Part shown: positions 12,857 to 20,126 of the stretch, piece by piece
How the letters are laid out: each line of letters begins with the position of its first letter
Position numbering within the stretch: position 1 is the stretch's first letter
NCBI GenBank assembly: GCA_903927025.1
Contig: CAIYLG010000047.1
Location: forward strand, 1 to 64,000
Length of the DNA stretch: 64,000 bases
Origin: an uncultured Armatimonadota bacterium
GTDB taxonomy: Bacteria > Armatimonadota > Fimbriimonadia > Fimbriimonadales > Fimbriimonadaceae
Reading direction: 5' to 3'
Notes under the pieces: generated by a model
Told to the model about the DNA's origin: nothing
Seen by the model: only the letters and a program-made list of their open reading frames with translations
The model's database searches: none
Position numbers and translations under genes: made by a program

Positions 12857-14227
12857 CTAGCTGTTCTTCTTGCCTTGGTCCAGGTGAAGCATGGTCCCCA
12901 TGAGCGTCTTCTCGGCTTGGCCCTTGTCTCCGCTTTGGATGGCTCGGAGTGCCATCGTGACTTCTTGCGCCTCGATGGTGCGTCCCTCTTGCGCCAGGAG
13001 CATTTGGGTTTTTTGGAGTTCCTGGATCGCACCCATTTGGGTGAGGACGCCGGTCTTCATTCCGAGGATGGTCTTCTCGACTGCCTTCGAGGCAAGGGCG
13101 ACCTGGGCAGCTCCTGCGACTCTTGGGTTCTGGGCGACCGTGTATCGGGCGGCATCGGCGGTGAACTCGATGATGAAGTCGAGGTCGATCACTTCTGTCT
13201 TGCTTGAGACAAGATCATCGTAGGACAGCTTTCCGTGCGCAACGCGGTAGTGGCCCAATGGGTGATTGGCAAAGTCAAAGTCGAATACCTGCTGGATGCT
13301 GGCTCCGCGCTCTAAGTCTGCCAACGGCAGCGAAACTTCTCCGGTTGGCGATGCCTGGGGAGATCGCAGAGTGACCCACCGAGCAACTTTCAGCTCAAGC
13401 TTGAGGTTCCTCGCAACGCTGGTCATGAGCTTGTCGAGTTCCAAACGGAAGACTTCCGGGATCATCTCCGGGCGAGGAATATAGTAGTAGTTCCCTCCTG
13501 CGCGCTTGGCCATGCTGGCGAGCAGCTCTTCGTTGTAGTCCGGACCAAAGCCAAGGAAGGTGCTGGTGATGCCGCGCGATTTGATCTCACCCGCGTGGGC
13601 GACGAGTGCCGAAAAGTCCTTGATTCCCGCCGTGGGGTCGCCATCGGTGAGGACCACCAGTCGAGTCGCTCGACCGGGATCGGTCGTCGCCATCACCTGC
13701 TGGGCGCCGAGGGCCAATCCGTCGTAAAGATTGGTGGTATTTCCTGGGATCAGCCGCTGAATGCCATCCTTGATCGGCTGCTTATTCGTCACCCGCTGCG
13801 GCGGCATGAGGACGTCGACCGTTTCCTCGAACGTGACGATGCTGAGTACGTCGTTGGGGCCAAGCATATCCACCACAAATCCGCAGGCCTGCTTCACGTA
13901 TTCGAGCGGAGGACCTTCCATCGAACCAGAACGGTCGATGACCAAACACAAATTCAGTGGTGTGCGAGAACTGCCGCCCATCACAGGAGTGCCGGCGCCT
14001 GTGAACTCCACGATGAACTGCTCGCGGGCGGGTCCGTTTGCCATCGTCGCCTCGCGGCCAGCAATGACTTCTGCCATGAGGCCCTTGCCGTTGTCGACCA
14101 TGGGCGCCATCGCGGTGGTTTTCAGCGGGTCAAAGGGGGCCATTGCCTGGGTCCGCAACGGGTCACCGAGACCTGGCGCTCCGGTGAGCATTGTGCGGTT
14201 AGGATCAATTCGTTGCGTTGGGTCCAT
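12857..14227 (-). CDS. VWA domain protein with N-terminal TxAMAP repeats
   Basis: 456 residues. A von Willebrand A domain at about 90-270 has an intact MIDAS: D98-x-S100-x-S102 (LVIDRSGSM), a TNLYDGL threonine motif and VVLTDGDPT. A beta-rich region and a helical C-terminus (about 350-456) follow. No signal peptide is visible, so it is probably cytoplasmic. The N-terminal ~45 residues are disordered-looking and hold DPLRTQAMAP and DPLKTTAMAP. Similar T-x-A-F-A-P motifs sit in the adjacent FHA protein. FHA domains bind phosphothreonine, so these threonines may be docking sites (inference). It is the last gene of the FHA operon, 24 nt after the preceding stop. Confidence 0.87.
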   Translation of the reverse strand: MDPTQRIDPNRTMLTGAPGLGDPLRTQAMAPFDPLKTTAMAPMVDNGKGLMAEVIAGREATMANGPAREQFIVEFTGAGTPVMGGSSRTPLNLCLVIDRSGSMEGPPLEYVKQACGFVVDMLGPNDVLSIVTFEETVDVLMPPQRVTNKQPIKDGIQRLIPGNTTNLYDGLALGAQQVMATTDPGRATRLVVLTDGDPTAGIKDFSALVAHAGEIKSRGITSTFLGFGPDYNEELLASMAKRAGGNYYYIPRPEMIPEVFRLELDKLMTSVARNLKLELKVARWVTLRSPQASPTGEVSLPLADLERGASIQQVFDFDFANHPLGHYRVAHGKLSYDDLVSSKTEVIDLDFIIEFTADAARYTVAQNPRVAGAAQVALASKAVEKTILGMKTGVLTQMGAIQELQKTQMLLAQEGRTIEAQEVTMALRAIQSGDKGQAEKTLMGTMLHLDQGKKNS

Positions 14228-14251
14228 ATTGAGAAGATTGCTCCAATGATT

Positions 14252-15709
14252 CTATGCGGGTTCGACTCGAAAAGTGGTTGAACCCAATTTCAGCATATCG
14301 CCTGGTCCTGCTGTCGCTTGGGAGACGCGCTGACCGTTCAAAAAGGTTCCGTTCGTGCTGCCGAGATCGGTGACGGCGAGTCCGCCGGCTCCGGGCTGCA
14401 GCACAGCATGACGGCGGGATGCTCCGGCGTCAAATGACATTGGGATAGCGGGACAATCTCGTCCGACCTCTAACGGACCAGGAACGGAGAACCGCTGACC
14501 CATCAGAGGGCCGTCCATTGCGGTAAGGGCAAACCCGACCATCGCCTGCACCGGCGCAAAGGCTACGGTGGGGTTGGAGGAGGCCGGAGCAAACGCTTGA
14601 GTTGGCTGCCCACCCATGGGCATCATTCCCTGCATGGGTCCAGGGCCTGGCGTGGGCTGGGCGAACGGTACGGTGCCTCGGGTCGGCTGGGCCTGCATCG
14701 GTTGGCCTTGGGGCGCGTAGCCGGGAGCCGGGCCGCCGATTGGGTATGCCTGGCCGGCGTACGCCTCGGGTCCTCTCGCAGGGGCGGCATGTCCCTTTAG
14801 CAAGAATTGGAGAATGTATCCACCCACTTGGATCTGGGCCCCGTGCATCAGGGCAACCTGGCCAATTCGCTGCCCGTTGACAAAAGTTCCGATTGGAGAG
14901 CCGTTGTCGGTAAGGATGTAGTGCTGACCCTGCCGGGTGATGGAGGCGTGGATGGGGGCGATGTTTGCATCTCCAAACAGCGGCACTTGGGCTGATTCGC
15001 TTCGACCAATAAACGTCTGATTTCCGTCGATGCTCCACTCTTTGCCTTCATTCCGCCCCAACGAGAGTCGGAGCCAGGCGCTTCGTGCAAATCGCTCGAC
15101 AAGGCCAATGAAGAGGGCAATCATCGCCCCGAGAAGCACAGCAGTAAGAGCCCTGCCGAGGATTCCAACTTCACCAGAGTGCTGGCCTCGCGCAGATAGG
15201 ATCGCACCCCCGACGATGTCGCTTACCGGATCAAAGCATGCACCGGAGATGGCACCACCGATTGCACCGCCCAGGAATCCTTGAATCGTACGCTTGGGAG
15301 TCAGTGAACTCGCGCCGATCCCTCCACCCAGCATCATCCCGATCGGGATGAAGACGAGGATACGCGCCGCCATTCTCGCGGGCATCGGTGCTTCTGAGAC
15401 AAAAATGTCCGGGCGAAAGCAAAGGTGAAGCAGGGTGCTTCCAAGCCCAGAGCCGAAGGTGGCACCTACCGCACCAAAGATGAGCCCAAGACCAAGACCG
15501 CGGCTGGTGTGAATCTTGCCGCCTCGAGTGTATCCCTCCAATCCGCCAACGGCAAGGCCGATGACCGACCCCAGGATAAGGATGAACGTGCCTTCCCAAA
15601 CGCCCCAACTGGCCGAATAGATATTCTTCGGCGCGCTTGGCTCCAAAAGAGCCCAGACGAGCAGACCTGCGGTGCCGCCCACTAGGAATTTGAGAATGAC
15701 GCTACCCAT
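14252..15709 (-). CDS. Membrane protein with two FHA domains
   Basis: 485 residues. Residues 1-200 are Gly/Ala-rich with several membrane helices (FLVGGTAGLLVWALLE, GTFILILGSVIGLAVGG and others). FHA domain 1 is at about 225-300 (FIGRSESAQVPL, APIHASI, GTFVNGQRIG). A Pro/Gln/Met-rich linker of about 80 residues follows. FHA domain 2 is at about 395-480 (LEVGRDCPAIP, ASRRHAVL, LGSTNGTFLNGQRV). FHA2 keeps the G-R, S-R-R-H and N-G phosphothreonine-binding residues. FHA1 has IHA in place of SRxH and may be weaker. The linker contains TQAFAP and TVAFAP. It starts 3 nt after the preceding FHA gene and likely acts with it and the VWA protein. Confidence 0.88.
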   Translation of the reverse strand: MGSVILKFLVGGTAGLLVWALLEPSAPKNIYSASWGVWEGTFILILGSVIGLAVGGLEGYTRGGKIHTSRGLGLGLIFGAVGATFGSGLGSTLLHLCFRPDIFVSEAPMPARMAARILVFIPIGMMLGGGIGASSLTPKRTIQGFLGGAIGGAISGACFDPVSDIVGGAILSARGQHSGEVGILGRALTAVLLGAMIALFIGLVERFARSAWLRLSLGRNEGKEWSIDGNQTFIGRSESAQVPLFGDANIAPIHASITRQGQHYILTDNGSPIGTFVNGQRIGQVALMHGAQIQVGGYILQFLLKGHAAPARGPEAYAGQAYPIGGPAPGYAPQGQPMQAQPTRGTVPFAQPTPGPGPMQGMMPMGGQPTQAFAPASSNPTVAFAPVQAMVGFALTAMDGPLMGQRFSVPGPLEVGRDCPAIPMSFDAGASRRHAVLQPGAGGLAVTDLGSTNGTFLNGQRVSQATAGPGDMLKLGSTTFRVEPA

Positions 15710-15712
15710 TTA

Positions 15713-16960
15713 TCAGCCTTCGAACCTGAACCGTACCGAGCCGAACTGAACCGCGTCGCCGGGAGTCAGGGCCATGTCGCCTGCTACCTTCACACCGTTC
15801 ACGTACGTCCCGTTGGTGCTGCCGAAATCGGTCACCACCACGGACGCCCCTGAACGGGTGATTTGCGCGTGCTTTCGAGACACTGTGCTTTCTCCCACCA
15901 GGCTCAATCCCAGTCCAATTTCCCTTCCTACGATCAGATCTCCCTGTGGCAGCGACAATGAATCGCCGTTTTGTGACACCAGCCGTGGATCGGATATCAC
16001 GGTAGACGCGGCAACAGGGGCAATTAGGTCGGGAGCGGCATCGTCAAGGATAATTTTCTGAACCGGTGCTGGGGCTTTTGGCTGCGGAACGGGACCTGGA
16101 TCCGCTAGTGGGTCGTCGCCAGGCTTCGGAATCTGCACACCCAGAGCTTCGAGTTTGGAACCGACCGTATCTGGGTTCTTCTTGACGTACTGGAGGGCGT
16201 AGTAGATGCCACCTCCGACCGCACCCATCACGAGAAGATAGACCAGGATCTGCCCAAGGATATTTCCTCCCCCACCGCTACCTGCCGCCGAGGAACTGGA
16301 TCCTGCAGAGGTGGCTTGAGTCGAAGGTGCCGGTGCCGTATCGCTTCCGCCTGGCGCTGCCGCACCCACAGTGTCGACCGCATCCGCGATTGAAATCGTA
16401 AGGCTCGGAATGGGCTCGGTCCGCGTGATAGCCGCGTCCAGCAACTGGGTGACCGGCTTACCATCCTTTCCACCCACCTTGTAGTGAACGGTCACTTTGA
16501 GTGAGCCCGGTGCGATCCCGAAGAATAGAACTTGACCGGCGTTGCTCGGAGCGAGAAGCTGGGACGTCTGATGCTTTCCGTCATTCAGTTCGATGGATGC
16601 GGCCGCGACCGGCTTGCCGCTGTGTTCGACCTTTACCGCGACCTCGGCGATCCGCTGGAAATCAGACGGCTGGACGGCCCAGGCCGTACCGGCATCCTTT
16701 ACCGATTTCACTGCCAGGTTCCCGGTCTTCTTGTCCCAAACGCAGATGAGTGAGGTGGCTGCCGCACCCCCAGAGGGCAAGCTGGCTTCATTCTTCAGGG
16801 CATGTATCCCATCCGAATCTGACGGGGGCTGGGTTGGGACCGCGGCTGAGACCCATACCTGCCGGTCGCCGCTATCCGGAAAGGTTAGGGCGACATTCTG
16901 TGCCGAAGCGCTTACGGCAATGGCCGCGAGCAGGATGGAGAATGCTAGTTTCGGTGACAC
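15713..16960 (-). CDS. Exported/membrane FHA-domain protein
   Basis: 415 residues. An N-terminal signal peptide (MSPKLAFSILLAAIAVSASAQ) is followed by a beta-rich extracytoplasmic region to about 215. A Ser/Gly-rich linker and one transmembrane helix come next (about 240-262, NILGQILVYLLVMGAVGGGIYYAL). A cytosolic FHA domain is at about 335-415 (LIVGREIGLGLSL, TVSRKHAQI, FGSTNGTYVNGVKV). All main phosphopeptide residues are intact. The topology suggests a sensor outside coupled to phosphothreonine binding inside. It has a GTG start and overlaps the preceding nnr gene by 16 nt. Confidence 0.87.
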   Translation of the reverse strand: MSPKLAFSILLAAIAVSASAQNVALTFPDSGDRQVWVSAAVPTQPPSDSDGIHALKNEASLPSGGAAATSLICVWDKKTGNLAVKSVKDAGTAWAVQPSDFQRIAEVAVKVEHSGKPVAAASIELNDGKHQTSQLLAPSNAGQVLFFGIAPGSLKVTVHYKVGGKDGKPVTQLLDAAITRTEPIPSLTISIADAVDTVGAAAPGGSDTAPAPSTQATSAGSSSSAAGSGGGGNILGQILVYLLVMGAVGGGIYYALQYVKKNPDTVGSKLEALGVQIPKPGDDPLADPGPVPQPKAPAPVQKIILDDAAPDLIAPVAASTVISDPRLVSQNGDSLSLPQGDLIVGREIGLGLSLVGESTVSRKHAQITRSGASVVVTDFGSTNGTYVNGVKVAGDMALTPGDAVQFGSVRFRFEG

Positions 16961-19050: not shown

Positions 19051-20007
19051 CTAGAATCCTGAACCAAAGATGGGGCTGGACTTGATGTCCGTGGCAATGT
19101 TGAACCAGCGGCGCTTGTGATACTTGTCGCAGATCTCTCCGACCAACCGGTCCGTCTTCTCACCTGCGGAGTCGATACCGCTTGCGCTCTTGCCTTCCAT
19201 CTTGAGCAATTTTTCCATATCGCCGGCCGCAAGGTGGTCGGCAATGTCGCCCATCTGCGCGGCCTCCTCATTTAGGGCCTGGTCGTAGGCGTTTTTAATG
19301 GCTACGCACTCCTCGGGTGGCTTCACGGAGTCGAAGTAAACCAGCACATCGTGGCACTGATCGTGCATCTGCTTGATCACCTGGCCAAGCTTCTCGGTGG
19401 GGGAGTGGAGCTCGGAGTTCGGGTCGTCGATTCCGTTGAGCAGATCCTTGAGCGCATCGACGCCACCGGCCACCTGGGACTTCTCCTTCTCGGTGTAGGC
19501 GGTGGTGAGCTGAGACATGGTGATCTCCGCACGCTTTTCCTCGCTCTTTCGAAGATGCTCCAACCACTGATAGATATCATCCGGCATCTCGGCCGGTGCG
19601 GTGGCAACTGCGGCGAGCGGGACATCGGGAGTTCTCCCCACGGCCACCAACGCCGCGCCGGGGAGCTTGCTCTTGGCGATAAGCGCAGCTTCTTCAGGCG
19701 TTTTGGCATTTTCACCAAGGAAGCCGAGGGACTTGAGCCCGAAGCCGACCGCACACACAGCGGCAAGAACACCCAAGGCGATCGCAATCACTGTGGTGCG
19801 ACGGCGCTGTTGATCGAATGCGGCGCTCAGGTTGCCGGCAGGGACAGATCCAGCACCGGCAGGAGCGGCTTGGGGCGCAACCGGAGCAAACGGAACGGGG
19901 CGCGGCATTTGCGTTGTCTGAGGAGCGGCCGACACAAGCGCCTGTCCGCAGTGCATGCAGAATGCGGCATTTGCGGGAACCTGTTTGGCGCACCTCGGGC
20001 AGTTCAT
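19051..20007 (-). CDS. Zinc-ribbon single-pass membrane protein
   Basis: About 318 residues. The N-terminus is a CxxC-CxxC zinc ribbon (MNCPRCAKQVPANAAFCMHCG). A Pro/Ala/Thr-rich linker follows (TTQMPRPVPFAP). One transmembrane helix is at about 75-95 (TTVIAIALGVLAAVCAVGFGL). A predominantly helical extracytoplasmic domain of about 200 residues completes it, with no motif I recognise. The ATG at 20007 is preferred to a TTG at 20031. It heads the operon leading to the SprT-like, nnr, FHA and VWA genes. Confidence 0.75.
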   Translation of the reverse strand: MNCPRCAKQVPANAAFCMHCGQALVSAAPQTTQMPRPVPFAPVAPQAAPAGAGSVPAGNLSAAFDQQRRRTTVIAIALGVLAAVCAVGFGLKSLGFLGENAKTPEEAALIAKSKLPGAALVAVGRTPDVPLAAVATAPAEMPDDIYQWLEHLRKSEEKRAEITMSQLTTAYTEKEKSQVAGGVDALKDLLNGIDDPNSELHSPTEKLGQVIKQMHDQCHDVLVYFDSVKPPEECVAIKNAYDQALNEEAAQMGDIADHLAAGDMEKLLKMEGKSASGIDSAGEKTDRLVGEICDKYHKRRWFNIATDIKSSPIFGSGF

Positions 20008-20126
20008 GACATTTATGACGCTTCCAGACAAGCGTTCCGTCCACGGTTGCCCACATTATGTCGCTGAACTGTCAATGATCCAAGAACAATTTCCATGAGA
20101 AAGGCGTCCGGATAGCTAACAGTTTC

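Follow-up and report, generated by a model that had tools for sequence, protein, structure and literature searches.

Tandem threonine motifs on an ArnB-like VWA protein of Armatimonadota suggest an old VWA/zinc-finger-FHA phospho-switch with its sites moved to a new tail

Within the window, by which we mean the whole analyzed stretch of 64,000 nt from an uncultured Armatimonadota bacterium, an operon encodes a VWA protein with the fold of ArnB and conserved threonine motifs, together with FHA proteins that include domains with intact phosphothreonine (pThr) binding sites. With a probability of roughly 0.7, we read these as parts of an ArnAB-like kinase/phosphatase/FHA switch whose Thr sites lie on a new N-terminal tail, where the phosphorylation, the binding, the choice of partners and the output are what we infer. 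The initial annotation had proposed a phospho-dependent docking code between the VWA protein and its FHA neighbor, an idea largely supported by motif enrichment and an intact FHA2 domain, while the motif, the reader domain and the operon had to be corrected.

The locus and its threonine motifs

The FHA-A, FHA485 and VWA genes are close-packed on the minus strand and comprise the following features.

15713..16960, minus strand: FHA-A, with a C-terminal canonical FHA domain and, by eye, a likely signal peptide and one transmembrane segment
14252..15709, minus strand: FHA485, with six N-terminal helices (likely membrane), FHA1, a linker and FHA2
14798..15079, minus strand: FHA1 of FHA485, degenerate, with the Ser of SRxH replaced (mostly by Pro) and STNG changed to SPxG
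14543..14767, minus strand: disordered linker of FHA485 (residues 315-389), with TQAFAP (T370) and TVAFAP (T381)
14258..14533, minus strand: FHA2 of FHA485, with a canonical pThr site (GR, SRRH, STNG)
12857..14227, minus strand: VWA protein of 456 aa (Pfam VWA; structure model), a beta-sandwich split by the VWA domain and then a four-helix bundle, which is the ArnB architecture
14093..14227, minus strand: disordered N-tail of the VWA protein (residues 1-45), with T4 (TQRI), T12 (DPNRTMLT), T26 (DPLRTQAM) and T37 (DPLKTTAM)

The initial annotation had read a shared T-x-A-[MF]-A-P motif in two disordered segments, and all four copies were found in place (TQAMAP at residues 26-31 and TTAMAP at 37-42 of the VWA protein, TQAFAP at 370-375 and TVAFAP at 381-386 of FHA485, all within 14102-14602), with AlphaFold pLDDT <50 in both segments (about 40 in the VWA tail; residues 315-389 of FHA485). 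In public genomes, related contigs carry the labels Fimbriimonas, Fimbriimonadaceae, Chthonomonas or Armatimonadetes, and the VWA protein is present in 80 of the 85 genomes of the window's family. Loci were fetched from 72 of the 79 other VWA-matching genomes, the 7 with only fragments or distant VWA proteins being omitted; an FHA485 homologue was found at 61 and FHA-A at 60 of these 72 loci. Upstream in the window, a zinc-ribbon protein (19051-20031), present in part of the family neighborhoods, has a Pro/Ala-rich linker with TTQMPRPVPFAP that loosely resembles the Thr motifs.

In 67 unique VWA tails, T-x-A-[hydrophobic] occurred 102 times versus 8.3 in shuffles that preserve composition but not relatedness (maximum 18 of 2,000); for 61 FHA485 linkers of the family the counts were 57 versus 10.8 (maximum 23), while the S-x-A-[hydrophobic] control was not enriched in either (1 versus 2.5 and 4 versus 7.6, respectively). 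One VWA row (L099) was excluded from the count, having no D-x-x-[RKQ]-T form of the kind used for setting the start; its RT sites are still there. The VWA tails have 208 basic-Thr pairs and a single basic-Ser pair; of the [RK]T sites, 91% have D at −4 and 79% have P at −3. A hydrophobic residue stands at +3 in about half of them (99/208; some were lost through trimming), the T12-type sites having T, S or G there. When 31 VWA proteins from across Armatimonadota were aligned, M1, T12, T26, D33 and T37 proved to be ≥90% conserved and D98, S100, S102, T164, T165 and D195 invariant. Judged from these alignments, the conserved unit is a tandem D-P-N-[RK]-T-x-x with a fixed Thr and a drifting remainder, and T-x-A-[MF]-A-P represents a local version of it. 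The motif originally proposed is thus enriched and Thr-specific in the homologues of both proteins, but too narrow as written.

Such repeats might also be phosphorylated to change the charge, order or multimerization of the VWA tail or for an outside reader, with the FHA domains not being readers at all. The D at −4, the fixed [RK] at −1 and the variable +1 to +3 suit a kinase consensus no less than a reader's, and in relatives the kinase gene lies within the operon (see below); nevertheless, Ser is nearly absent (1 versus 208), as expected under selection by a Thr-only reader, and neighboring genes encode several canonical FHA domains, so that we regard this alternative as rather unlikely.

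A third motif carrier and the candidate readers

Six FHA domain matches and three Ser/Thr kinases were counted in the window's own genome. With these kinases present and the motif enriched in homologues of both proteins, neither of the two outcomes that the initial annotation had named as refuting its idea was obtained. The tandem motif recurs in a further protein of this genome, ZnR-FHA (G000:C52), in which a Thr tail (DVNKTQLI, DPNKTRMG, DPNKTVMG and NATQTI) is followed by a zinc ribbon and two FHA domains, and whose gene lies directly before a PP2C gene. ZnR-FHA matches Pfam FHA at 9.9e-33 and zinc-ribbon models at sub-threshold level only, and has orthologues in 78 of the 85 family genomes. 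Among 29 unique ZnR-FHA tails (30 loci), [DN]xx[RK]T was counted 82 times versus 2.7 in shuffles, and [RK]S was counted 0 times; in family f3 the tail reads TQAMAP (L282). D-P-N-[RK]-T-x-x is found mostly in the VWA protein and ZnR-FHA, and the FHA485 half of the motif pair first described is confined to the window's family. Co-variation of the VWA and ZnR-FHA motifs gave a hint only (mean cosine 0.437 versus 0.395 permuted, p 0.016, 28 loci), as phylogeny was uncontrolled and some tails were crudely trimmed.

FHA485 linkers outside the window's family showed no enrichment of T-x-A-[hydrophobic] (5 versus 4.4), and by this comparison the linker motif appears to be a local elaboration of that family. 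In FHA485 homologues from other families, the Thr motif is replaced in at least two inter-FHA linkers by a small ribbon rich in Cys (CQFCGQTKD...C). The FHA-A linkers were also considered as carriers, yet T-x-A-[hydrophobic] was not clearly in excess there (13 versus 6.3, maximum 16 of 1,000 shuffles), and this count leans high since at least one row (L106) is really an FHA485 linker.

FHA2 of FHA485, named initially as the candidate reader, retains all tested pThr-binding residues (R in 61 and S, R, H and N each in 62 of 62 rows), and FHA-A keeps R, S, R, H and N in 61/61 rows. FHA1 of FHA485 did not pass the GR / S-R-x-H / N-of-STNG test: its Ser-equivalent position holds P in 49, A in 6, R in 2, Q in 1, K in 1 and a gap in 3 of the 62 rows, and the binding Ser in 0 of the 59 ungapped ones. 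FHA1 is therefore likely, on these residues, a pseudo-FHA that is conserved across the family and phospho-independent. Its conservation without the pThr Ser, like the zinc-finger contact described for ArnAB (PMC12852372), would fit tails that dock without being phosphorylated, be it on FHA1, some other domain or the zinc ribbon. We consider such docking improbable, given the strict preference of Thr over Ser and a module that encodes a kinase and a PP2C.

Scanning the whole genome with a relaxed DNA pattern for the hexamer gave 55 matches versus 35 for the reversed pattern, 4 of the 55 falling in the 500 bases of the VWA tail and FHA485 linker. The exact hexamer was thus rejected as a code, being too common across the genome. 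When 30 of the 55 matches were fetched as loci (the other 25, including the window's own four, being outside that reading), TxA[MF]AP was in frame in 10, all but three of them in frames <100 aa. For the DPN-x-T DNA pattern, the same genome gave 22 matches, and tandem disordered tails were seen only in the VWA protein and ZnR-FHA. That the likeness of the VWA and FHA485 motifs is merely compositional, both segments being disordered and Pro/Ala/Met/Gln-rich, could draw on the commonness of the hexamer and the absence of the FHA485 linker motif outside the family, but is very improbable and already disfavored for the VWA and ZnR-FHA tails, as composition-preserving shuffles never reached the observed counts, the Ser controls were flat and the Thr sites are conserved across the phylum. 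Among the matches of the hexamer scan, the same 17-mer was found at the very start of contigs C37, C38, C42 and C53 of this genome, and also in C13, C23 and C60, which suggests a repeat, such as a mobile element, at which the assembly breaks.

Similarity of the VWA protein to ArnB

The VWA model (mean pLDDT 84.5) had as its best Foldseek match ArnB in the Sulfolobus ArnAB complex (8s05_A; E 1.3e-25, TM 0.64/0.75), and ArnB was also the top match of the protein by sequence profile (9.5e-17). In VIA-align, ArnB residues 2-382 corresponded to VWA residues 48-455 (Z 34.3, rmsd 3.6, 369 aligned), a score tied by that of a Catenulispora VWA protein (4fx5, Z 33.5) and followed by that of ArnE (5a8j, 30.0). 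The ArnB-type architecture, a beta-sandwich split by VWA with a C-terminal helix bundle, is present, and no Pfam match to ArnB_C was obtained to E 5, in a library whose inclusion of that model is uncertain. ZnR-FHA qualifies as an ArnA-like partner with an N-terminal zinc finger and a C-terminal FHA, though with two FHA domains versus one, and ArnA (5a8i/8s05_C) was among its FHA structure matches. As described for ArnAB, phosphorylated ArnB is bound by the FHA domain of ArnA (PMC6509490, PMC12852372) and unphosphorylated ArnB by its zinc finger (PMC12852372). The ArnAB authors describe the ArnB architecture as widely distributed and in most cases free of phospho-regulation (PMC12852372), and the fold alone therefore proves no switch.

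The gene set across the phylum

Outside the family, 40 VWA loci were fetched, of which 35 have a nearby FHA gene and 28 a zinc-ribbon double-FHA gene. Among the 34 extra-family loci with a ZnR-FHA homology match, 24 have PP2C immediately after ZnR-FHA and on its strand, and 21 of 30 family loci have PP2C immediately after it. A simple pattern revealed no kinase beside VWA in the first 112 loci, and undercounted PP2C too compared with the later count; the kinase was seen only on extending downstream. This extension covered 13 extra-family genomes, most of them picked because their contigs are long: ZnR-FHA and PP2C were found in 13/13, FHA-A and FHA485 upstream in 12/13, and an L001-type kinase downstream in 12/13, at ≤100 bases from PP2C in 10 and ≤700 in two. 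The operonic kinases share 53-61% identity with L001, the likely kinase of the window's genome (G000:C12), versus 22-29% with L003. All six genes stood together in 11 of the 13, the apparent ancestral order being FHA-A, FHA485, VWA, ZnR-FHA, PP2C, kinase, and in the window's family the set is split over three places. The initial suggestion of a code written and read within one operon gains support from relatives, which have kinase and phosphatase there; in this genome the likely kinase, the phosphatase and ZnR-FHA lie elsewhere.

The kinase itself was rejected as a motif carrier, as no D-P-x-[RK]-T was found in 18 readable family kinases (L001 and 17 of 20 fetched), which show isolated Pro-flanked Thr sites (PTVM in L182, PTMM in L189); the tandem motif was also absent from the 12 operonic kinases. 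The second kinase, L003 (466-2283, G000:C8), which is not the operon kinase, has C-terminal repeats that by eye resemble PASTA domains, and adjoins a gene resembling 3-dehydroquinate synthase.

Both genomes of genus g24 (G059 and G060; 1.5 Mb, 97% complete) are without VWA, all FHA, ZnR-FHA and the L001-type kinase, each retaining one other kinase match; this co-loss is one event in one lineage with reduced genomes. Three genomes ≥90% complete miss a single component (G043 the VWA protein, G057 the kinase and G037 ZnR-FHA), possibly through assembly gaps.

Discussion

In the proposed ArnAB-like switch, the threonines of D-P-N-[RK]-T-x-x would be phosphorylation sites, at which the Hanks-type kinase L001 would phosphorylate the tails of both the VWA protein and ZnR-FHA, and the PP2C encoded next to ZnR-FHA would remove the phosphate. 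The pThr would then be bound by the canonical FHA domains (FHA2 of FHA485, FHA-A and those of ZnR-FHA), tethering the ArnB-like VWA protein to the membrane FHA proteins or to ZnR-FHA, while the ZnR-FHA tail and the family-specific FHA485 linker motifs may be competitors in cis, as in GarA. This reading is argued for by Thr-specific, position-conserved motifs in the disordered VWA tail and the same tandem motif in ZnR-FHA, by the binding residues kept in FHA2 and FHA-A, by the linked PP2C and L001-type kinase, by the match of the VWA protein to ArnB, by the FHA binding described for ArnAB and GarA/OdhI/DgcB, and by the g24 co-loss. Against it stand the limited share (about half) of [RK]T sites with a hydrophobic +3, the lack of clear enrichment in extra-family FHA485 and FHA-A linkers, kinase linkers without the tandem motif, the mapped sites of ArnB in its helix bundle and not an N-tail, and a co-loss that amounts to one reduced-genome lineage, with G043, G057 and G037 each missing one component alone.

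In the open-access literature searched, no Armatimonadota FHA-VWA system was found. The TerY-P triad likewise groups VWA, PP2C and kinase genes; to our knowledge, it has neither FHA readers nor Thr tails. The PpkA-PppA-Fha switch of type VI secretion has a PP2C partner. There, as proposed here, an FHA domain is described to bind a partner's pThr under Ser/Thr kinase control (PMC3953482), but the substrate here would be an ArnB-like VWA protein, and no T6SS component was found among the ten window proteins searched.

GarA, OdhI and DgcB also have disordered N-terminal tails, whose phospho-Thr is reported to be bound by their own FHA domains with +3 being important (PMC6733907, PMC5448819); ZnR-FHA likewise is an FHA protein with a Thr-bearing N-tail. 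Those proteins have a single site or motif in cis, whereas here two to four tandem sites occur, both on a separate VWA protein (in trans) and on ZnR-FHA (in cis). Rules at +3 are described as not general for FHA domains (PMC4037201). Mycobacterial PknA-dependent sites are reported to be enriched in upstream acidic residues and Leu/Val at +3 (PMC7164672), preferences that, by analogy, would agree with the D at −4 and the hydrophobic +3 at part of the VWA-tail sites.

With ArnA-ArnB (kinases ArnC/ArnD, phosphatase PP2A), the module shares the full-length VWA fold, a zinc-finger/FHA partner, a kinase and a phosphatase, and multiple redundant Thr sites as described there (PMC12852372, PMC6509490). 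It differs in that the conserved Thr repeats lie on an extra disordered N-tail that is missing in aligned ArnB, whose mapped sites are in the helix bundle; in the use of PP2C; in a ZnR-FHA that has two FHA domains as well as a Thr tail of its own; and in two further FHA proteins and, in relatives, a single operon. More tentatively, at somewhat less than even odds, a six-gene pThr cassette of kinase, PP2C and FHAs may be ancestral to Armatimonadota, with a tandem Thr code in trans and in cis, a VWA membrane tether graded by phosphate number, and ancestry shared with ArnAB.

Ligands are known for few bacterial FHA domains, and here a candidate ligand can be read from sequence, which allows writer, eraser, reader and substrate to be tested directly, using peptides and a few purified proteins. 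The module is phylum-wide, bacterial and tied by fold to the archaeal ArnAB motility switch, which suggests an old VWA/zinc-finger-FHA phospho-switch whose sites have moved to a new tail.
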